Part shown: positions 3,059 through 34,619 of the stretch, piece after piece
Numbering within the stretch: the first letter of the stretch is position 1
Layout of the letters: each line of letters opens with the position of its first letter
Virus record (IMG/VR): IMGVR_UViG_3300042301_001349
Location: 1 to 35,618 of that record
DNA length: 35,618 nt
From: a virus
Reading direction: 5' to 3' (one strand)
Notes under the pieces: model-generated
Told to the model about the DNA's origin: nothing
Seen by the model: only the letters and a program-made list of their open reading frames with translations
Databases searched by the model: none
Program-made: the position numbers and the translations under genes

Positions 3059-3337
3059 ATGTGGTTTGCTTATGAAGAAGATAGTAGTGGGAAAAATGAG
3101 CCTTTTGTTGACTATGATGATGTCAAGGAAGATCTTATAATTCTGCAAAACAAGGTTGACGATACGCTTGGGCAGGGTGTTGTTTGGATTTATTTGAATC
3201 CAATTGACGACACTGACTATGAAGTGTATTTTGATGGACCTGACATTGAGACACCTATTTTTGAGGACAATGTTGAAGACTTGTTCTCTAGTATTAGGGT
3301 GATGTTCTCTGATTACGAATGGGAGACTGATGTCTGA
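3059..3337 (+). CDS. hypothetical acidic protein (92 aa)
   Basis: ATG 3059 is preceded by GAGGAGAG. The protein is strongly acidic (many D and E, few K or R), a composition often seen in phage proteins that bind basic host proteins or mimic nucleic acid, although nothing here proves that. It overlaps the helicase gene by 8 nt, so translation is likely coupled. No family is recognised. Confidence 0.75.
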   Translation: MWFAYEEDSSGKNEPFVDYDDVKEDLIILQNKVDDTLGQGVVWIYLNPIDDTDYEVYFDGPDIETPIFEDNVEDLFSSIRVMFSDYEWETDV

Positions 3338-4718
3338 TTCTCCGTTGAGGCCTTACAGCTATCAGGAGAAAGATATTAGTTTGATTGTTTCTAATTCTGG
3401 TAGTGGCATTATTGCTACGCAGGTTGGTGGAGGAAAAACTTTGATTGCGGTTGAAGTTTCTAGGCGTTTAGCGTTCTCCACCAATCTTGTGATTGCCCCT
3501 AAGGGTACGCACAAGAGGGCTTGGGAGAAAACTATTTTGCGTCAGATACCTGACGCTAAGGTTAGTTACATCTCTTCGACAGTAGATGGTAAGCGCGCAT
3601 ATATGGACTTGAAGAATGGTGTTGCTGGCTGGTATATTATTAGTCCAGAGTTTTTCAGGAAGATGTATTGGGGCACTGTGCCAGTAGATTTTGCTGTTTT
3701 TGATGAGGCTCATCGTGCGTCTAATCGTAAAAGCAAAACTGCTATTGCTTTGCATAGCCTAAAGGCTAAAGGTAAGTTGGCGATGTCTGGAACTATTGCT
3801 GGTAACCGTGTGGAGGGTTTTTACAGTATTATTCGTTGGGTTTACCCTGATGTTGCTGGAAGATCTTACTGGTCTTGGGTAGATAAGTATATGTCTACTA
3901 AGATGGATTTTTTTGCTGGTAAGCAACCTGATGGTGAGAAAAGCCCTGGAATGATTGTAAAGAGCATTCCTTGCTATGTGAGACATCTAAAGCGTGAGCA
4001 GTGTTGTGCTTTGCACCCTAAAGGTATTGACAGCGAGTTGCCTGCAGTTACTTTTGAGCAGAGAACAGTTCAGTTGTCTGCTGAGCAGAAGCGTATCTAT
4101 AAGCAACTTGAAAAGAATCTTTTGGTTTGGCTTGGAGAGAACCCTCTAGTGGTGGAGGTTCCTGTTGCTATGCGCGTTAGGTTACGTCAGATCACTTTGG
4201 GTGTTCCTACTCTAAATGATGATGGTACAGTCGATTTTGCGGATGATTGTAGGTCTTCTAAGTTGGATGAGTTGTTTGAGATTATTTCTGACAGCCCTGA
4301 TGGTGAATCTATGCTTGTTTTGACGCATAGCCAAAAGTTTGCTCGGGTTACTGTGAATCGTCTTCAAAAAGCTGGTTTTGTTGCTGTTGAGTGGAGTGGT
4401 GCAGTGTCTCAAAAGGTTCGGGACGGCTATCTGGAGGATTTTATTGCAGGTAAGATCCAGTTTATTGTTGCTGTGATTTCGGCGATTGGTGAGGGCACTG
4501 ATGGCTTGCAGGAGGCTTGTTCTACTGTTGTTTGGCTTTCTAAGGACGATAATAGGTTGCTGAATGAGCAAGCTTCTGGTAGACTAGATAGGCAGGGTCA
4601 AAAGGGCTCAGTAATTTCTTATGAAATTATTGCAGAGGACACTTATGATGAGGGTCAACTTTCTAAGCTGGTTAGAGAACAGTTGGCTATGAATACTAGC
4701 TTGCGTAGCAAGGGATAG
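3330..4718 (+). CDS. SNF2-like superfamily 2 DNA helicase/ATPase
   Basis: A 462-aa protein with the two RecA-like lobes of SNF2-type enzymes. Visible motifs are Walker A TQVGGGKT (residues 30-37), motif II DEAH (125-128), motif III region AMSGTIAG (near 152), motif V region VISAIGEGTDGLQ, and motif VI ASGRLDRQGQKG near the C-terminus. It hydrolyses ATP to translocate on duplex DNA and is common in phage replication modules. No nuclease or extra domain is fused. The start overlaps the preceding gene by 8 nt and a GGGAG site lies just upstream. Confidence 0.92.
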   Translation: MSDSPLRPYSYQEKDISLIVSNSGSGIIATQVGGGKTLIAVEVSRRLAFSTNLVIAPKGTHKRAWEKTILRQIPDAKVSYISSTVDGKRAYMDLKNGVAGWYIISPEFFRKMYWGTVPVDFAVFDEAHRASNRKSKTAIALHSLKAKGKLAMSGTIAGNRVEGFYSIIRWVYPDVAGRSYWSWVDKYMSTKMDFFAGKQPDGEKSPGMIVKSIPCYVRHLKREQCCALHPKGIDSELPAVTFEQRTVQLSAEQKRIYKQLEKNLLVWLGENPLVVEVPVAMRVRLRQITLGVPTLNDDGTVDFADDCRSSKLDELFEIISDSPDGESMLVLTHSQKFARVTVNRLQKAGFVAVEWSGAVSQKVRDGYLEDFIAGKIQFIVAVISAIGEGTDGLQEACSTVVWLSKDDNRLLNEQASGRLDRQGQKGSVISYEIIAEDTYDEGQLSKLVREQLAMNTSLRSKG

Positions 4719-4728
4719 TAGGTGCGTT

Positions 4729-5217
4729 TTGAATCGAAAAGCTGTTTCTTTAGTTTTGTTGACTAGTTTTCTAACTTTCAATGGAAGTGAGAGTTTGAGT
4801 CAAGGTAAGACTTTTGTTCCAACTGTTGTGAAGCAATATGATTTCAGGGCTAAACTAATTTCTGATTTTCAAAAAAAACAGGAAAAAATTTTTCGGCAGA
4901 AATCGAATATTCGGGTTTTTGTTCTAAACCAAATTGAAAAGTATGGTTGGAACATGGATCAATACAATTGTTTGTATCGTTTGTGGAAGAAGGAATCTAA
5001 CTGGCGTTGGAACGCACACAACAAGAGCTCTGGTGCTTATGGTATCCCACAGGCGTGGCCTGCAGAAAAGATGCGCCATGAGTGGGCTGGTGGCGGTAAG
5101 GATTGGAAGACTAACCCTAGGACACAGATCACTTGGGGTTTGTCTTACATAAAGCGCAGTAAACACAAGACTCCTTGTGGTGCGTGGCAACATTCGGTGA
5201 AACATAACTGGTATTAG
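4729..5217 (+). CDS. secreted SLT-type lytic transglycosylase
   Basis: Starts at TTG 4729, 10 nt after the helicase stop. The N-terminus has a positively charged start (NRK) and a hydrophobic core (AVSLVLLTSFLTF), consistent with a signal peptide, then a linker. The C-terminal domain (residues about 76-162) is transglycosylase-like: YRLWKKESNW with catalytic Glu89, SSGAYGIPQA (residues 100-109), and the TPCGAW...WY ending typical of actinobacterial SLT proteins. It would cleave peptidoglycan outside the membrane. It sits among early replication genes, not beside the M23 endolysin and holins of the late region, so a role other than final lysis is possible. Confidence 0.85.
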   Translation: MNRKAVSLVLLTSFLTFNGSESLSQGKTFVPTVVKQYDFRAKLISDFQKKQEKIFRQKSNIRVFVLNQIEKYGWNMDQYNCLYRLWKKESNWRWNAHNKSSGAYGIPQAWPAEKMRHEWAGGGKDWKTNPRTQITWGLSYIKRSKHKTPCGAWQHSVKHNWY

Positions 5218-19301: not shown

Positions 19302-20961
19302 ATAGATCCAACTTATCTCCTAGAGGCATAAAAGCCATGTCCGAAAAGCTTAACCCAAGGTAAGACTCTCCAACTTGCTCGAAAGTCTCAGCAGGATAAG
19401 CTAAGTTAAAGCCTGCAAAAGTATTTGAAGGCCTGCTAGTGTCATTGTTAAAAGAAGTAAAGTTATTTGGGCTGTAAGCTACAGTGCTATTGTATTCACC
19501 AAAAGTTTCTGAATACACTAATGTTAAATCATCAAAAGTAGTGTCAGCTTTACCTGTTAAACCTATGCCAGAATCTGAAATGTTTGCGTTAGTTACCCTA
19601 TAGTAACCGTTCTTGTGCTTAAATCTTGCTCCAGCAACTTCATTTATTTCGTAAGGCAAACCAGACTTACCTATTGTCAAACTAACGCTAGCGGTAGGGC
19701 CAGTAGCATAAGCTGAAGACTGCAATAAATGATAGGAAATATCTGTAATAAAAGGATTGTCTACAGTAGCCTTACTGTCCCTAGAAATAAAAGTTTCATC
19801 AGCGCCAGTAGCTATAGTTCTAAGTTTCTTGTTTATCTTAACACCGTCACCACAAATATACAGGGCAGGTCTAGATTCTGTATCATACTCTGCAAGTTTA
19901 AAAGGCTCAACATACGCACTGTTTTCCTGATCGGGTGCTTGAATCTTTATTTCAAGTTGAAGAGGATTTTCCTTAGACACACTGACATAAACTTTTCCAC
20001 CACTATCATTCCACCACTCAGGTTCTACAGGAAAGTTTAAGTTGTCAGTAACAGTGTAAACAGATTGGTTTACACCTCCAACAAAAGGATAAGGCATAAT
20101 TGCTTTGACGCACACAGGTTGGATAATCTTATCGTCTGTAGTAGAAAAACTTACATCTACAAGCTCAGTAAGTTGCTCGCCTCTATTAAGTTGAAAAGTT
20201 GTTTCAGCAGAATATATTACATCATCTTGCTCCCAAGAATTATCGTAATGATACATTTCAATAGCTCTAGTGTTGCCTAAAAGATTTACGCTCATTGAAG
20301 CGCCGCTGTTCTCCATGACAGAAATAGTGTTTTGTCTAATCTTTCTTAAAACAATTTGCCCACTATAGTTAACAAATACTTCAGCCTTGTTAGCTACACA
20401 AAACATTTTAATGTGCTCCCAAACATTACCCTTCCAAGCCGCATAGTTTACAGGAATGTCAAAGTCAGAGCTAATAAGGTTTTGATCTACAACCACATTA
20501 GCTAAGCTACAGTAATATATGAAAGCAGTTTTTTGTGTAGCTGTAGCCCCAAAGTGTGGTTCAGCAGTTTTTTCACAGTTAAACTTAAACAGCAAACTAT
20601 CTACGCTAAAGCTAGTTGTGCCTCCTGCACTAGCATTCATTGAGCTTACGGTTCCGTGAAAAGATCCTCTACCATTAGTAGACTTTTGGTAATCAAACTT
20701 TGATTCATTGTAATACATAGGTGAGTCTATTAAAGAAACTTCACGACCTAGCAACGCGCTTGCCCTCATGTAGCCTGGCCTGTTAACCCTGTTGCCATCC
20801 TTGTCAATAGTTGAATCTGAAGAAAGCAAGGTCACATCCATAGATCCAGTAGACCCACCACTGTCTGTCGCGTCAGTAGAAACTGTTTCTGCAACTACGC
20901 TGTAATTAGCGAGCTCGCTCACATGCGCGGAACCAGTTTTTGCTTTAAAAACTACAGCCAT
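19291..20961 (-). CDS. minor tail/baseplate hub-like protein (556 aa)
   Basis: Follows the distal tail gene with a 10-nt overlap. The position and size (second protein after the tape measure) are those of the tail-associated baseplate hub of long-tailed phages. The sequence is beta-rich with many Ser, Thr and Asn residues; residues about 50-250 would make the hub fold. No peptidase or lysozyme motif is visible. I infer the role from position. Confidence 0.7.
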   Translation of the reverse strand: MAVVFKAKTGSAHVSELANYSVVAETVSTDATDSGGSTGSMDVTLLSSDSTIDKDGNRVNRPGYMRASALLGREVSLIDSPMYYNESKFDYQKSTNGRGSFHGTVSSMNASAGGTTSFSVDSLLFKFNCEKTAEPHFGATATQKTAFIYYCSLANVVVDQNLISSDFDIPVNYAAWKGNVWEHIKMFCVANKAEVFVNYSGQIVLRKIRQNTISVMENSGASMSVNLLGNTRAIEMYHYDNSWEQDDVIYSAETTFQLNRGEQLTELVDVSFSTTDDKIIQPVCVKAIMPYPFVGGVNQSVYTVTDNLNFPVEPEWWNDSGGKVYVSVSKENPLQLEIKIQAPDQENSAYVEPFKLAEYDTESRPALYICGDGVKINKKLRTIATGADETFISRDSKATVDNPFITDISYHLLQSSAYATGPTASVSLTIGKSGLPYEINEVAGARFKHKNGYYRVTNANISDSGIGLTGKADTTFDDLTLVYSETFGEYNSTVAYSPNNFTSFNNDTSRPSNTFAGFNLAYPAETFEQVGESYLGLSFSDMAFMPLGDKLDLYVN

Positions 20962-21887
20962 GCTTCAACCTCTTTAAGTTTTGCGCCAACCTTAACAAGC
21001 TTTTGCCCCCCAACAATACCATTGTATTGTATTGAAGGTGGCTCTGTCATTACGCAGCCAGTAAACCCTTGACCTGGACTCCAGTTAGTTGCATATTCTA
21101 CACCATAATCCCAAAGATCGTGCCCATGCCCAGAAACTCCATCAGCTAAAAATAATGTACCAATACCACCGCGAATAGTTATAGTTGAAGCAGTATTATC
21201 CGACTTAGAGATATAAACTCTAACAGCTTTAACTTTTTGGCTTGCTCCAGTTACGTTACTAAAAGTGCCGTTGCTAATATCGTAAATAGAAGAAGTATTG
21301 TAAGCTAGTTGTGTTAAAGTTACGTGTGTGGCATCAAGGCCGTTAGAAGCTAGAACTGGCACAACCTTAATGCTAGCTGTGCCCGTAGCAGAGTAAACAA
21401 AACCAAGTCTAAGGACATGCTCTTCCGGAATAAGAATAGTTAAAGACCTAGAAGTTTCCGCAGTGTTTGTTACAACATACTGTGCACTTTGGTAAGGCAA
21501 GTTTTTGCCTGAAGTTGACTCTGTTATAGGAGTAGGTTTGTTGTCGCTAGAAATAAGGCTAGGCCAATCACGCACAGTAAGCATAGGTGCAGCCCAATGT
21601 GGCGGAAGAATGTTCTTAGCAAACGGATCTTCCCAATACAGAAGTCCACCACCATACAAGCCGTCTTTAAAGTTTTTAATAACCTGAAGGTCGTTAACGT
21701 CACCGTTCCAAGACATGCTGAAAGATCTAGCTGAACCAAAAGAAGACTTTATAAAGCTTCCACCATTGCTAAAGTTTTGCTCAGACTGAAACCCTGTAGA
21801 GCTAGCATCCATGTCAGCTAGGGGAGCTTTAATCCAAGTGCCATAACGTTGGTTACCAAACCAAACTTTACCATCATATACAGCCAT
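20952..21887 (-). CDS. distal tail-like minor tail protein (311 aa)
   Basis: First gene after the tape measure, with a 3-nt overlap at the TAATG junction. It begins AVYDGKVWFGNQRYGTWIKAP, as in the first minor tail proteins of many actinophages, followed by a FSMSWNGD region and a lectin-like insertion (about 130-260) with TSRSLTILIPEEHVLRLGFV. These proteins cap the tail tube and connect it to the hub. Assigned by position and N-terminal resemblance. Confidence 0.72.
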   Translation of the reverse strand: MAVYDGKVWFGNQRYGTWIKAPLADMDASSTGFQSEQNFSNGGSFIKSSFGSARSFSMSWNGDVNDLQVIKNFKDGLYGGGLLYWEDPFAKNILPPHWAAPMLTVRDWPSLISSDNKPTPITESTSGKNLPYQSAQYVVTNTAETSRSLTILIPEEHVLRLGFVYSATGTASIKVVPVLASNGLDATHVTLTQLAYNTSSIYDISNGTFSNVTGASQKVKAVRVYISKSDNTASTITIRGGIGTLFLADGVSGHGHDLWDYGVEYATNWSPGQGFTGCVMTEPPSIQYNGIVGGQKLVKVGAKLKEVEAWL

Positions 21888-24800
21888 TAGTTTGACCCTC
21901 TCATTGCAAGTAATCTGTTGCCATTGTTTGCGCTAGTGGCAATTTGTCTGTCGTCTGAGTAAAGGTTGATAGGTCTGTTAGACATCGCCATTAGTTGCAT
22001 AACTGCATTAGGAGATAATTCTACCATAATATTATTTCTTCCAGCCTGTTGAGACCCAGCGTTGTATGACATTCTAGGCATTTGAAGCCTGTTGATAGAG
22101 TTCATAAAGTCTAGGCCATAGTATTGTACAGCTTTTTGTCTTTGCACAAACTCGCCGTTAGATAGTCTAGCGTTAATGCTGTCACTTGTACCTGTGCCGG
22201 GACCTCTAACTAGACCACCAGAAGCAAAGCTATCGTAAGTTTTCTTGAAAGATGTTTCGCCTAGTAAGCCTTTAAGATTTGTTCCATTAAATCCATTTGT
22301 ATTTAAAAGAGTTCTAATGTCAATAAACTCTTTAGCCTTTGCTTTAGCTTCTGCAGTAAGATTTTGAATTGCAAGTTTATAAGGCCTCATGACTTCTTGA
22401 TCTTGTTTCATAAGTGTCTTAAAATCATCAGGATTTTTAGAAACTCCACGGTTTTTTGCAGCTTCTTCGTAAGCATCTATTCGATCAGCTATAGTGTCCG
22501 TATTCCAAGCACCATAGTATCTGCTGTAAGCGGTTTTAGATGTTTTTAAAAGGCTAATGCCATCTAAAACCCATTGTGGTAAAGCTTTTTCTGTTTGAGC
22601 AAGAGCATCTTTATCTACTTGAGATAGAAGAGCCATTCTTTCCATTGGGCTTAAACGATTTTTTTCAGCAGTAAAGAATGCAGACCTATCATTATCGTTA
22701 AAACCTTTTTCTGCGCTAACATCTTTTGCTGTTAGTACTCGATCAAATCGATACCCACCTTTTGCGTTTAATCTTCTAAACACTCTATCTGCACTGTCAG
22801 CTTTTACAAGCTTGTCACCAATAAGAGAATTTTTGGTAGAACCAGAGTTTAAGCCTGCAAGCGCCGCCTGTTCTTTCTTAGTGATCCTTGACGAAACCTG
22901 TGTGCCAGAAGTGCCCGCAGGATTAGTACCGGCAGGATCAGTGCCGCCGCCGCCGCCACCGCCACCGCCACCGCCACCACCGCTAGTGCCAGCAGGGGCA
23001 GGAGTATTCGCTGTAACATTTGCTGTACCATCTTTATCCTTATTATTAGCCCACCACTCTAGCCAAGCGCGCATACCAGGATCCGCAACAACCTTCAAAG
23101 TAAGCCTGTTTGGAAGCTTAGCTATTACAGTTTGCATGTCCTTAAAAGATTCTAGGTAAGGCTTTAGCTCTTGCTCGCTGAAACCCATGCTAGTTGCTTT
23201 AGCTTTAAAATCTGCGGTAAGCTGCTTAGCCTGTTCTTTAAGTCTCCTTCTATCAACAATATTTGTTGTAGACTGATATTGGTTAGCAAGCTCTGCCATC
23301 TGTGCATTATAGTCACCAACCATTCCACGCATAGTCTCACGGTTCTGTATAGCACCAGCACTATTTCCAGTCAGCTTTGTGCTAGCATTCTGTTGTGCCT
23401 CTGCACGGCTTGCCTGCTTTTCAGCAATATCAGCATTAGCCTTAGCAATATCTGCACGAATTTTATCTGCGCGAATAGTGTCACCATACTTTATAGCAAT
23501 ATTCAGCTGGTATTCAAGAATATTCCTGTCAGCAACCATGCTAGCAATTTCTTGGTTAATAGCTTCAAGCTGCTTTCTAGCTTCAGACAGCCTGTCACCT
23601 ACAGCCTTCCAAGATGTAGTAAGTTTATCGGTTGACTCAGTTAGTCCATAGCGAATCTTAAACGCATCATTGAACAGCCCACTAAGGTCGCTAACATAAT
23701 TTGTTAGAGTGTAAATTCTTTCAGCAGTCTTTTCTAGTGCTGTGTTTGTTCCGTTAGCAGTTTCTTCGGTTTGCTCTAGGCTACCAATCAAGGCCTTCCA
23801 GATCTTAGAGTTTTCTACACCGGCAAGAGTAGTCGCATCCAAGCTTCTAGCAATGTTAAGCAAGTCTTCTTTAACCTTAGTTGCAATAGACGGATCAATC
23901 TTAATTCCATTAAACGTGTCATTAATAAAATCTACTGCACCACTTCCAGGCACAGTAAGTGCAGCTGTAATAATAGATTGGAATGAAGTGCCAGCACTTT
24001 CAGCAAGAGCAGCAAGGTCCTTATCTTTGTCAAAGTATTCTTTAAACATGTTCTGCACAACTTCATCCTGCATAGCTGCGTTAGCAAGCCATTCAGCAGA
24101 GTTTTTGCCTAAAGCAAGAGTCTGTTCTTTAACGCTTTCAGTTGTTTCAGCTGTAGCACCTTCTGCTTCAATGGTTGCGCCAGTTGCTTTTTGAAGGCTA
24201 GAAGCCCACTCGTTAAATCCGGTGGTAGAAGTTGTTACCTTGCTTTGATAAGTTGAGTATGCATCTCCACCTTCTCGCAAAGCTTGAGTATCTTTATAAA
24301 TTGACTCTCTAAATGATGCAAGACCTCCACCAGCTTCTTCAATGTTAACCTTAGCTGAATCCATCTTTTCTGCAATCATTGCAACCAAGCCAAGCACGAT
24401 TGTTAGACCAGCCATAACAGGTCCAGCAAAAGTCATCGCCTTACCAAACTTACCTGCAGCAACACCAGCCTTGTTCATTACAACAACAGACTCAGCGGTT
24501 GCAGCGTTACCTGCAAGGATAGCTGTCTTTCTTCTTTCAAGAGCAGCAACTTCACCATTTAGCGAAGCTATCTCTGCATTGTTTGCTGCAATCTGTGCAC
24601 GGCTTTGAGCTATGTCAACGTTGCCTGCAGCGATACCCGCCTGCAAAGCTCTGTTTTCATTTTCTTTAAGCTTAATAGCAGCTTGCTTAATACCCATCTG
24701 CTGAACGATAGCTGCAGCCTGATCTTTAGTTGCGAGAGCATCAGCAGTCTTAGCTGCAGAAGTTGCACTAGTAGCTGCACCTTCAGCTTTAGTTGCGGCA

Positions 24801-27800
24801 GTAGATTTAATTGTTTCATCAACATAACCCTTTTTAGCTGCTGCTTGGTGATCCAAAGTTTGAATTAAGCCATCACCATTTTCAGTGTCAGTTAGTCTTG
24901 CCCCAGCACCGCTAGCACCAAACTCTCCCATAGAATCCATGCCACCACGACCAGGCTGCATGTTAGCACTAATCGCATCGTATTCAGGTGTGCCTGCTTT
25001 AGCCTCTTTAATCATTCCAAGTTTCTTAAATGACTCAATAGCTTTCTTGTTAGAAACTTCAACTCTACCGTTTGCACGAACAATCAAAACTTCCTGACCT
25101 GTGATCATCTTTCTAAAAGCATTTAGGCCAGTCTCAGACTGCCCCATCTTAGCTAAGCTAACTTGTGCAGTTCTAAACGCAAGCAAGCTTGCAGTAGCTT
25201 TCATGCTGATCATTCTGTAAGCAACAAAAGCTGCAACCATGGCACTCAAACCTGTAGCCACACGAATAGCCCAAGCTCCAACAGGGTTGTTTGCAACAGC
25301 ATTTAAACCATCCAAAATACCTAGCACAGCATCAAGGGCAAAGTCAAGTGCAGGGCCAAGAGCTTCACCAAAAGCATCCTGCAACATTTTAACTTGGTTA
25401 GCAACAAGAGTCATCTTAGTTGCAATGTTATCTTGAGTCTTAGCGTAAGCGTCACCCAAGAAAGTTCCATTAGCGTAAGACTCTTGAGCATCCATCATAG
25501 ACTGGTTATAAACATCCATGTTCTCTGCAAGTCTCTGCAAAGTGTTAACCTCACGTGTCTCAGTGATGTTCAAAGCATCTAAAGCTGTAGTCATGTTCTT
25601 GCTTTGACCCAAAGCATTAAGCATTGTTCTGAAGAAACCTTCAGGGTCGCTCTTCCACATTTCTCTTGTAGCATCAGCAGTCATTCCAAGCTGAGCAGCG
25701 TAAGCGTCCAAAGGCTTTCCGCCACCCTCAACAGCACGGTTAATGTCACCGAACAAACGCACAATAACACCACGCGCCTGTTCAGGTGCAATACCCAAAG
25801 ACGACATAGTTGTAGCAAGACCAACAATTTTATCTGCAGTAAAACCAGAGTTAGATGCAGCGGCTGCAATGTTTTCTGTTAATGTAAGAATCTGCTCATC
25901 AGTAGCAACAGCACTAATACCTGCATAAGCTACAGCAGAACCAAGCTTGTCAAAGTCCTCTGAAGGAACCTTAGCTAACTGACTGATGCGACCAAACTTT
26001 TGTGCAACAGTGTCAGAAGCCAAACCTGTAATAGCAGAGAACTTTGTTACCTGTTCAGTAAAGTTTGTAATACCATCAGCTTTAATACCCATCTGTGCAC
26101 CAAGAGTTGTTACTCTAGAAAGCTCATCAAAAGCCACAGGTAGTTCTGCAGTAAGCTTAATGATTTCTTGACGCATACCTGCAATTTCATCTTGCAGTGG
26201 TTGCATAGATCTTTCAACAGAAGTGAAAGAAGTTTCGTACATTGCGTTAGTCATGATGGCTTGCTTAACTTCCATACCAACTCTACGCATTACACGTGTG
26301 AATTGTTGGTAAGTGTTAGAGACGTCATACAAAGCATAACGAGAGCTAATCCAGCCATCCATCATCTTGCGGTTAGCTTTTTCAACTTCCGCCATGGTAC
26401 GCATTTCGCCCTTCATCTGACCCTGAAGTTGCGCAGAGAACTGCTTAGCTTCTAGCTGATCTTTCTCAATCTTTTGATCATGTCTAGCAGCGTGATCAAC
26501 TCTAGAAGGGTTCATGCCACCGCCAGCAGCTATAGTGCTAGGAAGTCTTTGACCTGGAGTTACAGTTCCCTGTCTATAAGATTCTGGAATAGCAAAAGCA
26601 TCTTTACCGTTTCTGTATTTACCTACAGGTCCTCTAGCTAGAGATTCTTCAAACTCTTTAATCATTGCTGTAACGGAATCAATAGCAGACTGGTTGCCGG
26701 CTTCTTGAGCCTCCTTTAACTTAACTTCAAGTTCTTTCTTAAGCTTGTTCATGTCGGTCTTGCTTGCAACACGATCCTTAACCTTAGTTGCACCTGCAGG
26801 AACCTTAAAAACTTCAATCTCTGAATCAGTTAGCTTACCAACAGCACCATCCTTGATACTCTTCTGGATAGCTTTCATAACAGTTTCAAGTCTCTTACGT
26901 AGCTGTGGACTTAACTGTGCGTCAGGGTTATTTAATGAACCTTGAATTCTCTTTTCAGCAGCAAGCAGCTCCTCTAGAGGTGCCGCAATAGGGTTGCCTG
27001 GGCGTCTAGCAGAGCCCTTACCTTGGCCTTGTGGCTTTGTCTCACCTGACGCTGCTTCAAGCCTTGCAGTAGCCTCTTTAGCCCTCTTTTCGAGGTCTTT
27101 TTCTAGGTCGCTCTTTGCGATGGTTTGGCGCACAGCAACAAAATCTGTCTCAACCCCGCCTTTAGCAGCAAGCTTTCTAGCTAGCGCATCAGCTGCGGCA
27201 GGATTATCTGCCTTAGCTTTCTTAATATCTGCGGCAAGCTTGTCAATCTGAGCCTGACGGTTAGCCCTATCCTTACCCTTGCCTCGACCTTCGTTTCCAA
27301 GTTGAATATCTTTTTCAAGCAAAGCCTGCTTAAGCATAGACTCAAGCTCTTCAATCTTATCTGCCTCATACTGCAAGTCAGCATTAGCCTGCAAACGTCT
27401 ACGTCTAGCACGTTCCTTCTCTAAATCATCTCTAAGCTTTGCAGCCTCCTGAGCCGCAGTAGCCTGATCCTGTGCAGCCTGCTGAGCATCAGTCTCAGGT
27501 TTGCGCGGCAAGTCCTCAGTCATTGTTTCATAAAGCTCAACTGCAGGATCTTTACGAGGGCGCTTACCTGTTGCGCCAGGAGTATAGACTGGCTGCAAGT
27601 TTCCTGTTACAGGATCAGCTTGCCTCTCCATGCTCTTCATCTCAGAGCCGCCCTTGCTCTGGCGGTTACCCCAAATAGCGCTGCTTACTTGCTTCCAAGT
27701 AGCACCAGCCCAACTTAGCGCTTCACCAAACAAACCAATTTCTTTACCAGCAGCTTTTTCTTTAAGTGCCCTCATTGTGAAAGCATTTACTAAAGTTCCT

Positions 27801-30800
27801 GCACTATCAATTGTAGGGTCGTGAGCTACAGCAGCGCTGTCCTTAATAGTTGGAACGTTTCCAGCAGGTCTAAGCTGTGGACCCATAGTTTGACCAGTGT
27901 AACGACTATAAATAGCACCTACAGTTCTCTGATCTTTACCAGCAGGAACACCAGCCATTTCAGCTAAACGTTGGGTCTCAACAAGAAGGCCCTTATCTCT
28001 AAGCTGTGCACCAGTCGGAGCAGTAATTCCATAGCGGGCAAACTCTTTACCCAAACCAGAAATATCGCTCATAGATGAGCTGTGAATAGCTAAAGGAATA
28101 TCTTCTTCATAAATCTTTCTAAGAATAAAAGCAATATCCTCAAGTTGCTTGATGTAAGTTTCTTCATCGCCCTGAGTGTTTTCCTTACCATAACCAAGAC
28201 CCTTAATTCTATCCATAAGAGTCTTTTTAATTACACTAAAATCATCGCCCTCTGGACCCATCAAACCTAAAGCTCTAGCTGCACCAGTGTTGAACTTGCC
28301 AATCGGTGGCACAACCATGCCGTGAGCCATACCGCGCATTCTAGGAGTAACAACATCAGTGCCAGGAAGTGCACCAGCATCCCTATTTGCTACACCATTA
28401 CCTGCAACAACAGAGTAACCAAACACTTGGTTAACATTAGGGCCGCCATCCTTACTTACAGGACCAGTGGTTTCAATATCTAAAGCAATAAGAGTATCTG
28501 CAGCATTTTCAACACCCTCAGTGAGCATCCCGAGTTCTCTTAAGAATACCGCATTTCTCTCGATAAGCTGTGCTTCGGTAGAAAGAACTGCAGCACTAGC
28601 AGTGGCAGGTGCAGGCACAGTAGGTTTTGCAGGGCCAACAGGTCCGCCAGGGACAGGTGGCATCTTCATAGATCTGTGCAGTAGCGTAGCTTCTGCATGT
28701 TTGCCTTCTTCACGAAGTTGACGCATACGGTTAACAGCATCAACCTTAGCCTGCTCAGTGTAACCCTCATGGAAAGTAGAGGCAAGTGCACGACCTGCAG
28801 AGTCTAAGCTTTCTAAACCTTGGAACAGTCCTTCTTCAAGACCTTTAACAGTATCTTTACCAGACTTCTTCATTCTCTTTGAAGGAGACTGAATTTCCAT
28901 CTTACCTTCATAGCCATCAATAAAAGCTATAGCGGTATTTGCACCGGCTTGCTCTATTGCAGTAACGTCTTTAGCTAAACCTGCAATAAGTCCAGCTTGG
29001 GTCTGCTTTGCAGCATCACGCTCAGCATTTTCTTGATTTGCAAAAAGTCTTGAAAGCTCAACGTTGTCGCTTCTATTCTGTCCTAACTTCTTAGGCGCAG
29101 CAATCAAACTTTGTCTACCATACTTTTCTGCAATAGCATTTTCTGGGCGAGCCAAAACTTTACCAGAAGAAGTTACCTCAGCAGTTGAAGCTTTGCGAAA
29201 GGCCTCTCTCAAAGCATCTACAACTTGTGCTGAAAGATTAGTTCTTGAAGTAGAAACCTCAGTAGTACCTAAAGCCAAATCTTTTATTGTTGTTTGTAAC
29301 TCAACAAGATCAACACCACCAAGCAAACCAACATCAGGTGCAACATTTAATTTTTCAAAAATCTTTTCAATTGCAGCTAAAGGAATTTCAGCTCCACCAG
29401 CTTTATCCGAAGCATCTGCCTTACCACCTGAAACCCACTTTGTTCCAGCCTGTAACATTTCTTTAATATAGCCTTGAGTGTTTTTTACAAAAGCTTGCGC
29501 AAATGTTGCCTCGACAACATCAGTGTCACCCTCTTGGGCTGGGAGACCTGTCTCCCTGTTAAACATACCTTTTTTTGCACCAAGTTCTGAAAGGGTTCCA
29601 CCATAAATAGCTTGGAATTCTTTTGCAAGTTGAACTACGGCTTTAGTAACATCAGTTGTTGTTTCGTTAAATCCAGAGAACAGATTTTCTACAACTAAAC
29701 TTTCAACACCTGGCACAGCATTGCCCGACGCATCCAAAGCTGGAATAGACTTAGTTGATCTGCCAGTTTGTGCAGCGTTAAATAATCTTGCCATTTCTGG
29801 GATAGCAGGATTACCTGCTAAGCCGTAACCAGTTCCTAAGTTAGGGTCACCAAAAGCATTAGTTGTTACTGCACCTGATTCATTTGATTGTTTTAAAATT
29901 AATGCATAAGTTGTTATAATTTCAAGAAGGCCATCAGAAGCACCATTTAATGTTTGTAAAATTTCAGCTGCAGCTTTTTCAGTAACAGCAGTATACTGCA
30001 CAAAACCTGGGTCAGCATCAGGCTGTTGCTCTAACTGTGGGTTTACATATCCTTCAGTTACTTGCCTAATCACAGAAATTAAAGCTTGAGATGATAAATT
30101 ATTTCCAAGAGCGCCTTTAATTTTATCTTCATTTGTTCTAACAACATCAGCTGTTGAAGCATTTTGAGAATTTATTCTTTTAATTTCTTTTACAATTAAA
30201 TCTGCTATAGTGCCAGGAGCATTTTGAGTAAAGCCTCCGACAGGGCCACTGCTTATAACGTCCTTCATTCTTATAGCTTCAAGAAGGCTTTGGTCTATTG
30301 TTGATCCTGCGTCAGTAAAAAACTTTTTAAGCATAGCTCTAAAGCCACGATCAAAATCTGCCTGAACTTCAGGTGTTAAACCTTTTTCAAAAAATGGAAC
30401 TCTTTTTAGAGGAGTAGATTTAGAATCTTCAGAGTCACTAAGCTCTTCTTCTCTGCTACCAGACATGCCATCATCAAACTTTGGCTTGCGTCTTTCGCTT
30501 GACATGTAGAATCCACGCATGCCTGCTTTTTCTATAGAAGCAGGGCCTAGGGTTGAGAAGCCAAGACCTTGAGCTTCGCCTGATTGCAGCCTTCTTTCGA
30601 TTTCTTGGAATGCGAGCACGGCTGCTTCAAAAGCGAGCTGAGCTTCTTCGGCATTAATAACTCCACCTTTAAGTTTACCTTCATCGGCAAGTTTTGTGGA
30701 TGCCTCAACTGTTGTAGGCCAAAGACCTGTTTGACGATCTTTAATATCATTTCCTGAGCTAAAAAACTCTAGGATTTCTTTGATGCCTTCGCTAGCATCT

Positions 30801-32368
30801 CTAACGTTTCTTCTTCTGTCTTCTCCTGCATCAGTTACTTCACCTGTTGCATCGCGACTTCCAGCTCTTGTAATTTCTTGCGTTGCGCTAGCATCAGTCC
30901 TGCTGCCGCGAGTTTTTCTACTTGACTCGTTAGCTGTGTCAATGTTTTCACTTGACTTTTCAAGCATGGCTGCAACTTCAGCCTCAATTTCAGATAAACC
31001 GTCAGCAAGTTCTTCTACCGTAGCCTGTGCATCATCGAGCACAACCGCGATACCGCCTGCATTATTTGTTCCGTTTTTTCTTCCCTCTAAAGTGCTTGAC
31101 TGCATCTCTGCAACAACTTGAGGGGTGACTTTGTTTGGCAACATTTTTTCTAAAGTCAAGAAGAAAATTGATTTTAAAGCTCCAGCTAATTGATCTGGGT
31201 TAAGCCCTACAGCTTTAGCAGGATCTGTTACGCCACTTTCTTCAGCGGCTTTAATAAATGCATCTGCAACAGTGCTAGCAATAGACTTAAGTTGGCTTGA
31301 TTGCTCACCGCCAATATCAAGCTTAGAAAGAGAACGAGGAAGTAAAGCAGCGTCTGCAGAAGTTCCGTTTGGGCTACCCAAAATAGCTTGTCGACCACCA
31401 GCTACACCAAGTCTCTTCAGATCCTTTTTAACACCTAAATTTTTATTTCGGCTAGCAAAGCTAAGGTCTTCAATTTCTTCACTATAAAAAGTAATGTATT
31501 CATTAGCTTTTCTTAAACCAGAAGTTAGCATAGAAATCTTTTTACTTAGCTGAGACTTAGATGCCTCATCAGTAGTTTTAGCAAGCTCAGCTCTAGTGCT
31601 ATTAATTTCCCTTTGCATAGCTGTATGTGATTTAACATACTCTGCTCGCATCTGCTTTAACTCACTGACACGCTTCTTTTGTGCGTCAACTACATCCTTG
31701 CCACGTTCATTTTCTTCAATAATTTTTTGAAGCTGAGCTCTTTTACTGTCCGCAGCTTTTCTTGCTTCAACATTCTTTTTAGCAATTCTTATTTCTTCCT
31801 CCATAGCTTTAGCTATAGAAGGATCTGCCACAATTTTGGCAAGTTGTTTTTGTAAGTCGGCTATTTCCTCAAAAGTGTTTCCAGCGTTTTCTTTGACAGC
31901 CCTCATGGCTTTTTGAGTTTGAGCTAATTCAGCCACTAAAGCTGACACATTAAGTTTGTCTGTCGCTGTAGGATCAGCAATTTTAGCTAAAGAAGCTAAT
32001 TGATTTTTAATATATGTAACTCGGTTTTCAAGACGGGTTATTTCTTTACCATAAGAACCTGCACTAGATGACTTAACTTTGCCCCCGGCCTCAGCGGCAG
32101 CCTGTCTAGTAGGTTTACCTGCCCTAGAACTCCCAGCAGCATCGCCCAATTCAATTTTCTTTTTGTTAATTTTAGATACGAGAGCTTCAACTTTTTTAAG
32201 TTCACTTTGAATGTTGCTTGACAACTCTATCTTAGGGGCTTTAATACTTGCCAGCTCTTTCCTGGCATCTCGGGCAGCTTTTCTTGTGCCCGCAATAAAT
32301 TTAGCTAGATCACTATTGGCTGCACTAGTATCCAAGCCAATGGAAATATTAAAGTCTTCAGCAGCCAC
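21887..32368 (-). CDS. giant tape measure protein with embedded DEDDh exonuclease domain (3493 aa)
   Basis: GTG start at 32368 with AGGAG 6 nt upstream. Order of parts: N-terminal coiled coils (about 1-300); a long unrecognised region (300-1150); a tape-measure SPSKRMKKSGKD motif (about 1160); a DEDDh exonuclease domain (about 1290-1550); Lys/Glu/Gln-rich coiled coils (1600-1900); the canonical PhageMin_Tail-type domain from about 2000 to 2390; hydrophobic segments (about 2330-2395 and 2637-2670); more helices; a 13-Gly run (3130-3142); and the C-terminal GGLVRGPGTGTSDSI...LSNGEFV motif (about 3380-3410). It sets tail length and is ejected at infection. At about 1.5 A per residue the tail could be near 500 nm. 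Confidence 0.95.
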   Translation of the reverse strand: MAAEDFNISIGLDTSAANSDLAKFIAGTRKAARDARKELASIKAPKIELSSNIQSELKKVEALVSKINKKKIELGDAAGSSRAGKPTRQAAAEAGGKVKSSSAGSYGKEITRLENRVTYIKNQLASLAKIADPTATDKLNVSALVAELAQTQKAMRAVKENAGNTFEEIADLQKQLAKIVADPSIAKAMEEEIRIAKKNVEARKAADSKRAQLQKIIEENERGKDVVDAQKKRVSELKQMRAEYVKSHTAMQREINSTRAELAKTTDEASKSQLSKKISMLTSGLRKANEYITFYSEEIEDLSFASRNKNLGVKKDLKRLGVAGGRQAILGSPNGTSADAALLPRSLSKLDIGGEQSSQLKSIASTVADAFIKAAEESGVTDPAKAVGLNPDQLAGALKSIFFLTLEKMLPNKVTPQVVAEMQSSTLEGRKNGTNNAGGIAVVLDDAQATVEELADGLSEIEAEVAAMLEKSSENIDTANESSRKTRGSRTDASATQEITRAGSRDATGEVTDAGEDRRRNVRDASEGIKEILEFFSSGNDIKDRQTGLWPTTVEASTKLADEGKLKGGVINAEEAQLAFEAAVLAFQEIERRLQSGEAQGLGFSTLGPASIEKAGMRGFYMSSERRKPKFDDGMSGSREEELSDSEDSKSTPLKRVPFFEKGLTPEVQADFDRGFRAMLKKFFTDAGSTIDQSLLEAIRMKDVISSGPVGGFTQNAPGTIADLIVKEIKRINSQNASTADVVRTNEDKIKGALGNNLSSQALISVIRQVTEGYVNPQLEQQPDADPGFVQYTAVTEKAAAEILQTLNGASDGLLEIITTYALILKQSNESGAVTTNAFGDPNLGTGYGLAGNPAIPEMARLFNAAQTGRSTKSIPALDASGNAVPGVESLVVENLFSGFNETTTDVTKAVVQLAKEFQAIYGGTLSELGAKKGMFNRETGLPAQEGDTDVVEATFAQAFVKNTQGYIKEMLQAGTKWVSGGKADASDKAGGAEIPLAAIEKIFEKLNVAPDVGLLGGVDLVELQTTIKDLALGTTEVSTSRTNLSAQVVDALREAFRKASTAEVTSSGKVLARPENAIAEKYGRQSLIAAPKKLGQNRSDNVELSRLFANQENAERDAAKQTQAGLIAGLAKDVTAIEQAGANTAIAFIDGYEGKMEIQSPSKRMKKSGKDTVKGLEEGLFQGLESLDSAGRALASTFHEGYTEQAKVDAVNRMRQLREEGKHAEATLLHRSMKMPPVPGGPVGPAKPTVPAPATASAAVLSTEAQLIERNAVFLRELGMLTEGVENAADTLIALDIETTGPVSKDGGPNVNQVFGYSVVAGNGVANRDAGALPGTDVVTPRMRGMAHGMVVPPIGKFNTGAARALGLMGPEGDDFSVIKKTLMDRIKGLGYGKENTQGDEETYIKQLEDIAFILRKIYEEDIPLAIHSSSMSDISGLGKEFARYGITAPTGAQLRDKGLLVETQRLAEMAGVPAGKDQRTVGAIYSRYTGQTMGPQLRPAGNVPTIKDSAAVAHDPTIDSAGTLVNAFTMRALKEKAAGKEIGLFGEALSWAGATWKQVSSAIWGNRQSKGGSEMKSMERQADPVTGNLQPVYTPGATGKRPRKDPAVELYETMTEDLPRKPETDAQQAAQDQATAAQEAAKLRDDLEKERARRRRLQANADLQYEADKIEELESMLKQALLEKDIQLGNEGRGKGKDRANRQAQIDKLAADIKKAKADNPAAADALARKLAAKGGVETDFVAVRQTIAKSDLEKDLEKRAKEATARLEAASGETKPQGQGKGSARRPGNPIAAPLEELLAAEKRIQGSLNNPDAQLSPQLRKRLETVMKAIQKSIKDGAVGKLTDSEIEVFKVPAGATKVKDRVASKTDMNKLKKELEVKLKEAQEAGNQSAIDSVTAMIKEFEESLARGPVGKYRNGKDAFAIPESYRQGTVTPGQRLPSTIAAGGGMNPSRVDHAARHDQKIEKDQLEAKQFSAQLQGQMKGEMRTMAEVEKANRKMMDGWISSRYALYDVSNTYQQFTRVMRRVGMEVKQAIMTNAMYETSFTSVERSMQPLQDEIAGMRQEIIKLTAELPVAFDELSRVTTLGAQMGIKADGITNFTEQVTKFSAITGLASDTVAQKFGRISQLAKVPSEDFDKLGSAVAYAGISAVATDEQILTLTENIAAAASNSGFTADKIVGLATTMSSLGIAPEQARGVIVRLFGDINRAVEGGGKPLDAYAAQLGMTADATREMWKSDPEGFFRTMLNALGQSKNMTTALDALNITETREVNTLQRLAENMDVYNQSMMDAQESYANGTFLGDAYAKTQDNIATKMTLVANQVKMLQDAFGEALGPALDFALDAVLGILDGLNAVANNPVGAWAIRVATGLSAMVAAFVAYRMISMKATASLLAFRTAQVSLAKMGQSETGLNAFRKMITGQEVLIVRANGRVEVSNKKAIESFKKLGMIKEAKAGTPEYDAISANMQPGRGGMDSMGEFGASGAGARLTDTENGDGLIQTLDHQAAAKKGYVDETIKSTAATKAEGAATSATSAAKTADALATKDQAAAIVQQMGIKQAAIKLKENENRALQAGIAAGNVDIAQSRAQIAANNAEIASLNGEVAALERRKTAILAGNAATAESVVVMNKAGVAAGKFGKAMTFAGPVMAGLTIVLGLVAMIAEKMDSAKVNIEEAGGGLASFRESIYKDTQALREGGDAYSTYQSKVTTSTTGFNEWASSLQKATGATIEAEGATAETTESVKEQTLALGKNSAEWLANAAMQDEVVQNMFKEYFDKDKDLAALAESAGTSFQSIITAALTVPGSGAVDFINDTFNGIKIDPSIATKVKEDLLNIARSLDATTLAGVENSKIWKALIGSLEQTEETANGTNTALEKTAERIYTLTNYVSDLSGLFNDAFKIRYGLTESTDKLTTSWKAVGDRLSEARKQLEAINQEIASMVADRNILEYQLNIAIKYGDTIRADKIRADIAKANADIAEKQASRAEAQQNASTKLTGNSAGAIQNRETMRGMVGDYNAQMAELANQYQSTTNIVDRRRLKEQAKQLTADFKAKATSMGFSEQELKPYLESFKDMQTVIAKLPNRLTLKVVADPGMRAWLEWWANNKDKDGTANVTANTPAPAGTSGGGGGGGGGGGGGTDPAGTNPAGTSGTQVSSRITKKEQAALAGLNSGSTKNSLIGDKLVKADSADRVFRRLNAKGGYRFDRVLTAKDVSAEKGFNDNDRSAFFTAEKNRLSPMERMALLSQVDKDALAQTEKALPQWVLDGISLLKTSKTAYSRYYGAWNTDTIADRIDAYEEAAKNRGVSKNPDDFKTLMKQDQEVMRPYKLAIQNLTAEAKAKAKEFIDIRTLLNTNGFNGTNLKGLLGETSFKKTYDSFASGGLVRGPGTGTSDSINARLSNGEFVQRQKAVQYYGLDFMNSINRLQMPRMSYNAGSQQAGRNNIMVELSPNAVMQLMAMSNRPINLYSDDRQIATSANNGNRLLAMRGSN
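22943..22981 (-). repeat. trinucleotide run coding 13 glycines
   Basis: Thirteen consecutive GGC/GGT codons (seen as GCC/ACC on the + strand) in the tape measure, followed by short PAGT repeats. A low-complexity spacer between the central helical domain and the C-terminal part; likely to vary in length by slippage. Confidence 0.85.
27719..28501 (-). other. DEDDh (DnaQ-like) exonuclease domain inside the tape measure
   Basis: Within residues about 1290-1550 of the tape measure: motif I LIALDIETTG (Asp1297, Glu1299); motif II IHSSSMSDISGLGKEF with Asp1435 and the helix KEFARYG that follows it in real family members; motif III AVAHDPTIDSAGTL with His1516 and Asp1521, the exact H-x4-D spacing that defines the DEDDh subgroup. 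DnaQ epsilon has its corresponding residues at 12, 14, 103, 162 and 167, so the order agrees; the I-II gap here is about 50 residues longer. All five residues are present, so activity is plausible. Confidence 0.88.
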
Positions 32369-32400: not shown

Positions 32401-32412
32401 TATTATACACTA
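32401..32412 (-). promoter_or_regulatory. late-region promoter box TAGTGTATAATA, copy at the tape measure gene
   Basis: Identical 12 nt to 16444-16455. The TATAAT (32407 to 32402) includes the stop codon of the tail chaperone frame. A start near 32395 would leave a leader of about 27 nt with AGGAG before the GTG of the tape measure. It may boost the long gene separately from the chaperones. Confidence 0.4.
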
Positions 32413-33445
32413 TCCTTTTCCATGAGAGATCTCAAGTAAGACATGCGAGTAGGCATAGGGCCGCCATTATACGTGTAAGCAACAATGTAAGGGAGCTCAC
32501 CATAAGTCTTGCGATTCTTTTTAGAATCTTTTTCAAGCCACTTATCTAACTCAACCTTAGCAAAACATTTACCAACCTTAACCTTAAAGCCAACGTTGCC
32601 GGCTTCTTCATTACGGCACACCCACACAGGATTACCGCACTCATTACAAGTTTCATCTTGAAGGTTTTGGTATGCTTCTATAAGCATAAAATCAAATGGC
32701 ACCCAAGGGTCGCCAGGCTGTTCATGGAACAACATGGCGACTGGGCGAATACCATTAGTGATAGCAGTTTTTATCTTAACCAGATACGAACGATTGCCGG
32801 GCCAGGTTAAGACTTCGGTAAAAAACCTGCATCCGTTAATTGTTCAAAATAGCCGCTAGCAAGAGTTAGCTTCTGCATGTTCTCAACAAGCGTGTTCCAA
32901 GAGTCAGTAGCAATAGACTCACGAATATCAAGCATCTCTTCAGCAGTGTAAACATGATCATCAACATTACCGTTAGCGTCAATGACCTTTACAATGTTTT
33001 GTGCAATCAAAGAAGCAATATAGTATTTAACCCACTCAGGGTTATCGCTAGCTTCATTTCTTCCAGCCTCTGGCGGATACTTTAGGTTAGTTTGCTTAAT
33101 AGTGTCTTCAACAATCTTCTGGCTTACGCCACGCATAACAAAAGTAATTGCAGACTTTTTAATTCTTTCAGCAATTTCTTTTGCCTTATTCTCGTTCTCA
33201 ATCATACTGTCGCCATCAAAGTCATACTTCATGATGTCGTTTAGCTCAGCAAGTTCAAACGCAGCCGCACCATCAAGATAGATAGTAGCTTCTTTAGTTG
33301 GGTAACCCCTACCTTTAACAACTTCGCTTAAGTTGAACACTCCTTGTGATTGTGCGCTTTCAGCGATCTTTAAGATCTCATCAGCAACATCACTAGCTTT
33401 TGTTTCTGCTGCAGACTGTTCTGCAGATGTAATATCTTCGCTCAT
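32403..33445 (-). CDS. tail assembly chaperone GT fusion by -1 frameshift (347 aa)
   Basis: The 0-frame gene (33445 to 32807) ends ...DAGFLPKS-stop. Just before its stop is T_TTT_TTA (32825 to 32819), a textbook X_XXY_YYZ slippery site. Slipping back one base leads to the frame TEVLTWPGNRSYLVKIK..., which stays open into the 110-residue frame from ATG 32735 (MLFHEQPGD...). The fusion has 209 codons from the first frame and 138 from the second. This is the gpG/gpGT pattern of long-tailed phages; the fused form helps assemble the tape measure. The second part has Cys pairs (CNECG, VC). Confidence 0.9.
32807..33445 (-). CDS. tail assembly chaperone G (unshifted product, 212 aa)
   Basis: The main product of the chaperone locus, read to the TAA at 32807-32809. 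It is acidic and helical, with a proline-containing loop (YPPEAGR) near residue 122, and sits directly upstream of the tape measure gene. GAAAGG precedes ATG 33445. It binds the tape measure during tail assembly; the frameshifted form adds the T domain. Confidence 0.88.
   Translation of the reverse strand: MSEDITSAEQSAAETKASDVADEILKIAESAQSQGVFNLSEVVKGRGYPTKEATIYLDGAAAFELAELNDIMKYDFDGDSMIENENKAKEIAERIKKSAITFVMRGVSQKIVEDTIKQTNLKYPPEAGRNEASDNPEWVKYYIASLIAQNIVKVIDANGNVDDHVYTAEEMLDIRESIATDSWNTLVENMQKLTLASGYFEQLTDAGFLPKS
32819..32825 (-). other. -1 frameshift slippery heptamer T_TTT_TTA
   Basis: On the minus strand the heptamer is in phase with the codons GGT-TTT-TTA and lies 9 nt before the 0-frame stop. 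I see no strong stem just downstream; a GC-rich patch (CCTGGCCCGG) follows about 11 nt later. Confidence 0.85.
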
Positions 33446-33542: not shown

Positions 33543-34619
33543 CTAAGCTGCAGCAGTAACCATTACGCCAAGCTTACCCTGTGGGGCAAAGTTGACCATG
33601 AACTTAACGCTGTCTTCACCTTCGGTGTTGTCCATGTATGCGTCTGCAATGAACTTGTATACAGATACAACTTCACCAGCAGCAACATCAGGGCCAGCAG
33701 CCTTGTTGATGCGTGTAACTAGGAATCCGGTTGGACGAGTTCCATCAGTTGACGCCTTAAAGACTTCACGTGCAACGTTGTAAACGCTTGTAGCGTCGTC
33801 TAGGTCGCCATCACGGAAGAAAGTTAGAGATGCAGAGAACTGTGCAAAACCACGAACCTGTACCTGACCTTCGTCAATGATTGAACGGTCGTCAATCTTG
33901 TTTGAGTCCTGAGCACCTAGCTCGTAACCATCGAAAGCAATAGCTTCAGTTAGGTCAACTCCACCATTGATAATGTCAATGTCTGGTGCTGAGATGAAAG
34001 CTGATTCGCTTGTTACATCAGCAGCTGGAACCCAAACAACCTTGATCTTACCGTTTGAAGTAGACTTGGTTCCTAGAGTTGCACGAAGTTCTGGGCCTGT
34101 GCCTAGAGTTCCTGCAGCAACAGCTACGTTAACAGCAACTTCACCTGTAGTTAGGAAACGAGCTCCCATACGTACCATTTCGCCATCGCCAACAAGTTCA
34201 GTTGGGAAGTCAGTCTTAACACCAAAGATGCTGATCTCTTGCCCTAGAGCAAAATCTGCATCGTGTGCAAGACCAACACGCTTGATAAGGTAGTACTTAA
34301 CGTCAGGAGTCTTAAATAGGTCGCGGAACTTGTTGTAAACTGAAGTTGCAGTCAAGTTCTGGTCGCGGAAACCATCAAGGGAAGCCTCGTAGTTGTAGTA
34401 GGTTGGAGTGGTAACATCTGCATTGTCAACAATAGACAATGAGTTGTCTGACTGAGATTCAGTCTGGTTTAGTGTATAGTCGTCAGTGACGGCCTGTGAA
34501 ATGTCAAATACCTTAACGGCGCTAGAGATTTCTGTAAGAGTTGGACTCTGCCAGTTAGCAAAAGCATCTGCGGTAGCAACATATATACCCACATTAGGGC
34601 GTAGCATTTTAGTAGCCAT
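33543..34619 (-). CDS. major tail protein, internally duplicated (358 aa)
   Basis: GAGGAAAAC precedes ATG 34619. Residues 1-165 and 210-358 look alike: FRD...ATSVYN at 84-96 and 269-281 is followed in both by a helix (KFRDLF / VAREVF), a FL/YLI-x-R strand, an A-G-x-E-hydrophobic strand (GQEISIFGVKTD / GEVVSVYKFIAD) and a G/F-rich closing strand. Each half resembles one phage tail-tube subunit. The gene's position between tail terminator and chaperones fits the tube protein. A doubled subunit would form a ring of three, as in T5 pb6. Confidence 0.85.
   Translation of the reverse strand: MATKMLRPNVGIYVATADAFANWQSPTLTEISSAVKVFDISQAVTDDYTLNQTESQSDNSLSIVDNADVTTPTYYNYEASLDGFRDQNLTATSVYNKFRDLFKTPDVKYYLIKRVGLAHDADFALGQEISIFGVKTDFPTELVGDGEMVRMGARFLTTGEVAVNVAVAAGTLGTGPELRATLGTKSTSNGKIKVVWVPAADVTSESAFISAPDIDIINGGVDLTEAIAFDGYELGAQDSNKIDDRSIIDEGQVQVRGFAQFSASLTFFRDGDLDDATSVYNVAREVFKASTDGTRPTGFLVTRINKAAGPDVAAGEVVSVYKFIADAYMDNTEGEDSVKFMVNFAPQGKLGVMVTAAA

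Follow-up and report, generated by a model that had tools for sequence, protein, structure and literature searches.

The window, that is, the whole 35,618-base stretch of DNA that was analysed (IMG/VR virus record IMGVR_UViG_3300042301_001349), has as its longest gene a reading frame for a tape measure protein (TMP), which is open throughout its 3,493 amino acids and lies between the tail assembly chaperones and the minor tail genes, the position of the TMP gene in siphophages. Residues 1963 to 2399 match PHROG 17594 (E = 1.1e-112), five more TMP PHROGs match the protein, and Pfam PhageMin_Tail (PF10145) exceeds its cut-off in three relatives (L019, L051, and L054). By these family matches and the synteny, the open reading frame (ORF) is a genuine siphophage TMP. 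Its N-terminal extension encloses a predicted exonuclease domain of the DEDDh (DnaQ/TREX-fold) type, which is the subject of this report; the features concerned are listed below.

21887 to 32368, minus strand: TMP gene, 3,493 amino acids, GTG start (PHROG 17594, E = 1e-112, and synteny)
26489 to 32098, minus strand: N-terminal extension, about residues 91 to 1960, absent from the TMPs of cultured relatives (1186 to 1573 amino acids)
27662 to 28576, minus strand: conserved DEDDh module as aligned, residues 1265 to 1569 (TMP alignments)
27722 to 28513, minus strand: predicted DEDDh exonuclease domain as modelled, residues 1286 to 1549 (AlphaFold2 and Foldseek)
28472 to 28480, minus strand: motif I, D1297-x-E1299, invariant in 15 of 15 members
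28064 to 28066, minus strand: motif II, D1435, D in 12 and E in 3 of 15 members
27806 to 27823, minus strand: motif III, H1516-x4-D1521, invariant in 15 of 15 members
25172 to 26482, minus strand: TMP family core, residues 1963 to 2399 (PHROG 17594), homologous in Curtobacterium, Clavibacter, Microbacterium, and Arthrobacter phages

The translated TMP contains the five DEDDh residues in order, D1297 and E1299 (ALDIETTG), D1435 (SSMSDISGLG), and H1516 and D1521 (AHDPTID), exactly at the positions given in an earlier note made from the letters of this DNA, and the span that the note assigned to the domain (27719 to 28501) is close to that of the modelled one. The same note held that the proposal would fall if no match to the DEDD fold could be obtained; AlphaFold2 and Foldseek were run, and the fold was found. 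The AlphaFold2 model of residues 1286 to 1549, built from 15 sequences, has a predicted local distance difference test (pLDDT) score of 85.0 and a predicted template modelling score of 0.86, and its leading Foldseek matches in the PDB are TREX1 (E = 3.2e-6, probability 1.00), TREX2, the exonuclease of Pol epsilon, diDNase, and DnaQ (2gui; template modelling score of 0.68 normalised to the target), in agreement with an RNase H-like alpha/beta fold. Among viral models, the two top matches are nameless in the tables, and among the named ones DEDDh proteins, DnaQ-like exonucleases, and DNA polymerases predominate. In the model, D1297 and E1299 (model residues 12 and 14) are on strand 1 (8 to 15), D1435 (150) is at the N terminus of the helix 149 to 160 that comes after strand 4 (141 to 143), and H1516 and D1521 (231 and 236) are at the start of the last long helix (233 to 254). 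These are the secondary structure elements that hold the corresponding residues in DEDDh enzymes, which adds to the support for a predicted DEDDh exonuclease domain.

At the level of sequence libraries the domain stands apart. Searched by itself, the domain matches nothing in Pfam, PHROGs, or the PDB sequences, and Pfam PF00929 (RNase_T) does not rise above its curated cut-off in the window or its relatives, while 10 of 14 control genomes exceed it. The best sequence-profile match is NCBIfam NF005927, a Pol III epsilon model, which is not significant (E = 0.006) and concerns 2 of the 15 members; hhalign comparisons of the domain profiles with the individual DnaQ, RNase T, ExoX, and Orn sequences of E. 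coli aligned motif I or III in several instances, likewise without significance. A match to the TMP of Pocitis76 (E = 7) and matches to T4-type DNA polymerases (E of about 1) were judged to be chance.

Relatives were collected in several rounds. A search of viral contigs with the TMP core yielded four, with TMPs of 3,316 to 3,712 amino acids, where L010 and L012, of equal TMP length and layout, were counted once; a profile from the window domain aligned with three relatives then added L018, L019, and L020. Scanning more widely with the TMP core led to 80 loci, among them L049, whose TMP contains the same domain version (E = 7e-103), and a diverged group. In total, 14 further TMPs with the domain were found, 7 close (domains 36 to 56% identical to that of the window) and 7 diverged (12 to 18%), the latter being L051, L052, L053, L054, L055, L057, and L058, with TMPs of 2,086 to 2,576 amino acids and motifs of the FDTEF, GADF, and H-x4-D types. 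All five catalytic residues are retained in the first seven aligned domains, and the sole invariant columns of the 15-domain alignment are D1297, E1299, P1354, H1516, and D1521; at motif II, L053, L054, and L057 have E where the other 12 have D. Across full TMPs, the domain appears as a conserved island, with pairs roughly 45 to 75% identical, inside an N-terminal extension that is mostly 15 to 40% identical. Upstream of it, roughly 80 to 130 residues before the exonuclease, an IQSPSK...GLEEGL motif (TMP residues about 1161 to 1186, window about 28810 to 28890, minus strand) is present in five of the seven group 1 members checked.

The diverged members had been picked out partly by their motifs, so their whole extensions (545 to 1279 amino acids) were then aligned without anchors, which removes the bias of spotting them by eye. 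Outside the edge of the TMP core, the domain accounts for almost every invariant column of this alignment, including those of D-x-E and H-x4-D. When both groups were aligned in this manner, H1516 and D1521 stayed invariant and the D-x-E motifs of the two groups were not brought together; a profile-profile comparison aligned motifs II and III of the close and diverged versions (E = 9.5e-5, probability 59%). A profile from the diverged group alone contains too little conservation for scanning. The conservation of the domain is far beyond chance. A rival view, that a protein of this length contains the five motifs by coincidence and does not adopt an exonuclease fold, is in line with the lack of Pfam, PHROG, or PDB sequence matches and with the pLDDT of 37.5 of a first AlphaFold2 model made from four sequences only. 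Even that poor model had REXO2 as its top match, although not a significant one, and the confident 15-sequence model with its DEDD matches, the conservation, and the unanchored alignment effectively refute this explanation.

The domain is under purifying selection, with a ratio of nonsynonymous to synonymous substitution rates (dN/dS) of about 0.2; in four of five pairs the domain has values of 0.12 to 0.32 compared with 0.44 to 0.62 for the upstream extension, all of them rough since synonymous sites are near saturation. The exception is the pair L019 and L049, where most of the TMP core is 91 to 98% identical and the 900 residues upstream of the domain are 63 to 84% identical, whereas the domain is about 46% identical and the domain with the following linker 42 to 54% (TMP residues about 1300 to 1890). 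Similarly, the cores of L055 and L057 are 82 to 85% identical, but their domains only 24 to 38%. Because nearly identical cores carry such different domains, the comparison indicates that the module diverges or is exchanged separately from the carrier TMP while its catalytic residues are retained. A catalytically dead relic that serves as a tail spacer or a binding module would sit well with the E in place of D at motif II in 3 of 15 members and with the high divergence of the sequence elsewhere. However, D-x-E and H-x4-D are almost the sole invariant columns across the 15 members, down to 12% identity, which is the opposite of decay and, with the low dN/dS, makes a relic very unlikely; the predicted fold and its motifs suggest that the domain is, with good probability, an active exonuclease.

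In cultured relatives, which are phages of Curtobacterium, Clavibacter, Arthrobacter, and Pseudanabaena, the TMP has 1,186 to 1,573 amino acids and the core match starts at residue 95 to 267. In the window TMP it begins near residue 1,960, corresponding to an N-terminal extension of ~1,750 amino acids beyond the cultured relatives, whereas both the N-terminal and the C-terminal ends of the protein are common to them. In a TMP-core tree (L018 was left out, as its sequence ends before the core), the 14 domain-bearing TMPs form one group with support of 86/84, followed by L050, which has no extension, and then by Curtobacterium phage Yappy. Since the carriers form a single clade, one gain of the domain would explain its distribution. 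Among the six-frame ORFs of 122 loci, the domain was found solely inside TMPs; no standalone exonuclease gene matching the domain profiles is near the extension-less TMPs of L050, L056, L059, and L060, and two scans of genome collections revealed no prokaryotic genome contig, from hosts or prophages, with the domain.

This distribution bears on when the domain acts. The extension might be removed from the TMP by cleavage, at assembly or earlier, so that the released, active exonuclease works late in the producing cell, for example, on host nucleic acid. In favour of such processing are the very great length of the extension, about 1,750 amino acids beyond the cultured relatives, and the tail of about 520 nm that would follow, at 0.15 nm per residue (PMC4569894), if the entire TMP served as ruler; in addition, TMPs are often fragmented on gels (PMC11661146). 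On the other hand, the TMP remains one single uninterrupted ORF in all members that were sequenced through, and a separate gene would suffice for a late role, yet the 122 loci contain no standalone version. Furthermore, the window TMP has no cysteine in its 3,493 residues and the counted TMPs of relatives have 0 to 2, with none in most relatives, compared with 1 to 6 in most other window proteins counted. The extension is as cysteine-poor as the rest of the TMP, which is expected if both pass through the tail tube. Late action after cleavage is thus unlikely, although it is the strongest of the competing explanations.

Instead, we favour, with somewhat more confidence than doubt, an active 3'-5' exonuclease that travels in the tail within the TMP and is delivered at DNA entry, a view based on analogies with other TMPs and on the cysteine-poor composition throughout the protein. 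In phage 80alpha, the TMP is a trimer with its N termini at the neck, where they contact the end of the packaged DNA, and its C termini at the tip (PMC11661146). In lambda, an inner-membrane protein labels the TMP during genome injection, indicating that the TMP reaches the inner membrane (PMC13190303), and in TM4, an enzyme motif within the TMP helps to infect stationary cells, its deletion shortening the tail by about 20 nm (PMC1796659). The parts of the window TMP that would lead on exit are its core and the following C-terminal features.

25220 to 25276, minus strand: hydrophobic, transmembrane-like segment, residues 2365 to 2383 (Kyte-Doolittle scan)
24362 to 24439, minus strand: hydrophobic, transmembrane-like segment, residues 2644 to 2669 (Kyte-Doolittle scan)
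21890 to 22168, minus strand: conserved TMP C terminus, about residues 3401 to 3493, which aligns in all relatives, cultured phages included

Before this conserved C terminus, TMP residues of about 3100 to 3400 (window about 22170 to 23070, minus strand) form a hypervariable segment that is glycine-rich in the clade and mostly absent in cultured relatives.

By analogy with the 80alpha, lambda, and TM4 TMPs, the DEDDh domain, as a portion of the N-terminal extension, would be assembled into the tail tube with the TMP and would leave the particle just ahead of the DNA, following the C-terminal core and its hydrophobic segments. After refolding at or inside the host membrane, it would digest host or defence-related nucleic acids (DNA, RNA, or short oligonucleotides) from their free 3' ends, acting in the first moments of infection as an early takeover or counter-defence function. 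Of these steps, delivery of the domain together with the TMP is reasonably likely; a counter-defence role is the weakest and must be regarded as doubtful. In its boldest form, the proposal is that the tape measure has been turned into a nuclease delivery device, in which a fast-diverging DEDDh exonuclease precedes the genome and destroys the substrates or signals that trigger or arm defences (e.g., single-stranded DNA and guide or signal oligonucleotides), and this is put forward only tentatively. The divergence between L019 and L049 fits an arms race, or a diversifying module for host interaction.

Several points weigh against this proposal. Neutral change, or recombination without selection, could also explain the L019/L049 divergence, and E replaces D at motif II in three domains. 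No cultured phage record matches the domain. The proposal would require that a folded 30-kDa domain, presumably in three copies, be accommodated in the tail tube and that the N-terminal half of the TMP be ejected into the cytoplasm, which siphophages in general are not known to do. A different substrate has also to be considered, namely, the 3' end of the phage genome itself, which the domain might trim or resect in the virion or on entry, for instance, for circularisation or replication. Among the DEDDh enzymes, the TREX and DnaQ types, to which the model is structurally closest, work on the 3' ends of DNA, and the N terminus of the 80alpha TMP touches the packaged DNA end (PMC11661146). But the domain is about 1,265 residues away from the N terminus, which in the extended state would place it roughly 190 nm along the tail, and such strong divergence of its sequence is unexpected for a housekeeping step, so that action on the phage's own DNA appears quite unlikely. 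Trimming of DNA inside the virion, an option raised in the earlier note, is disfavoured for the same distance from the DNA-contacting N terminus.

On the 5' side of the TMP gene are two ORFs for tail assembly chaperones and the gene for the major tail protein; minor tail proteins and an endolysin are encoded on the 3' side.

33543 to 34619, minus strand: major tail protein (PHROG 2491, E = 6e-71)
32807 to 33445, minus strand: tail assembly chaperone (PHROG 15960)
32403 to 32735, minus strand: tail assembly chaperone, second part (PHROG 20192)
20952 to 21887, minus strand: minor tail protein, downstream of the TMP gene (PHROG 20280)

The major tail protein consists of two tandemly duplicated halves, 30% identical to each other (E = 3e-13), and two adjacent genes of phage Pan2 match it. 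Among early-type genes, a small SLT transglycosylase-like gene (4729 to 5217, plus strand) is flanked by genes for an SNF2-type helicase and a C5-cytosine methylase. Arthrobacter, Microbacterium, and Gordonia phages have genes similar to other genes of the window, so the host is likely actinobacterial.

In predicted fold and in the order of its catalytic residues, the domain resembles TREX1, TREX2, DnaQ (Pol III epsilon), and other DEDDh 3'-5' exonucleases. It differs from TREX1, TREX2, and DnaQ in having no significant sequence-profile match and in being embedded in a structural tail protein, whereas these are enzymes of replication, repair, or RNA turnover. With regard to the carrier, the closest parallel is the peptidoglycan-hydrolase motif Mt3 in the TMP of mycobacteriophage TM4, likewise an enzyme inside a siphophage TMP that is thought to be active at entry; however, Mt3 is an unrelated enzyme with the cell wall and not nucleic acid as its target, and it is removed by a 114-amino-acid deletion, compared with about 260 amino acids for the present domain (PMC1796659). 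Polyvalent proteins, MuF fusions, and T4 Alt are also virion proteins that enter the host along with the DNA and bring enzymes, including predicted nucleases, but they are head-packaged or fused to portal or MuF, with several enzymatic domains, and the paper on them describes no link to tape measures (PMC5512222). The window TMP does not combine several disparate enzymatic domains in one polypeptide as polyvalent proteins do; Pfam detects no second enzyme domain in it, and the DEDDh domain alone is recognisable. Sle1 and Tme, effectors of actinobacterial contractile injection systems, are TMP-related delivered cargo as well, yet they belong to injection systems and not to phage infection, and no nuclease domain is described in them (PMC13277306). 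The nuclease SNIPE encounters the TMP at the membrane as the genome is injected; it is a host-encoded defence acting on phage DNA (PMC13190303), while the nuclease predicted here is phage-encoded and covalently part of the TMP. Papers that pair tape measure and nuclease terms were considered as precedents and set aside, as they describe separate genes (PMC4569894, PMC6070908).

The earlier note knew of no described tape measure nuclease, and we likewise found no published one among the matches listed from 5.4 million open-access papers, with subscription journals outside the scope of the search. The enzymes embedded in tape measures that are known to us are cell-wall hydrolases. To our knowledge, the combination of nuclease and tape measure is new, whereas the DEDDh fold and injected enzymes are already known. 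The existence of related TMPs with and without the domain, together with five conserved residues, makes the hypothesis directly testable. If it is true, siphophages can deliver an enzyme that acts on nucleic acid from the first instant of infection, without gene expression, which would be relevant to how phages forestall defences that act rapidly at the entry stage, such as SNIPE, and the window TMP would represent a natural route for passing a folded enzyme through the narrow tail tube.

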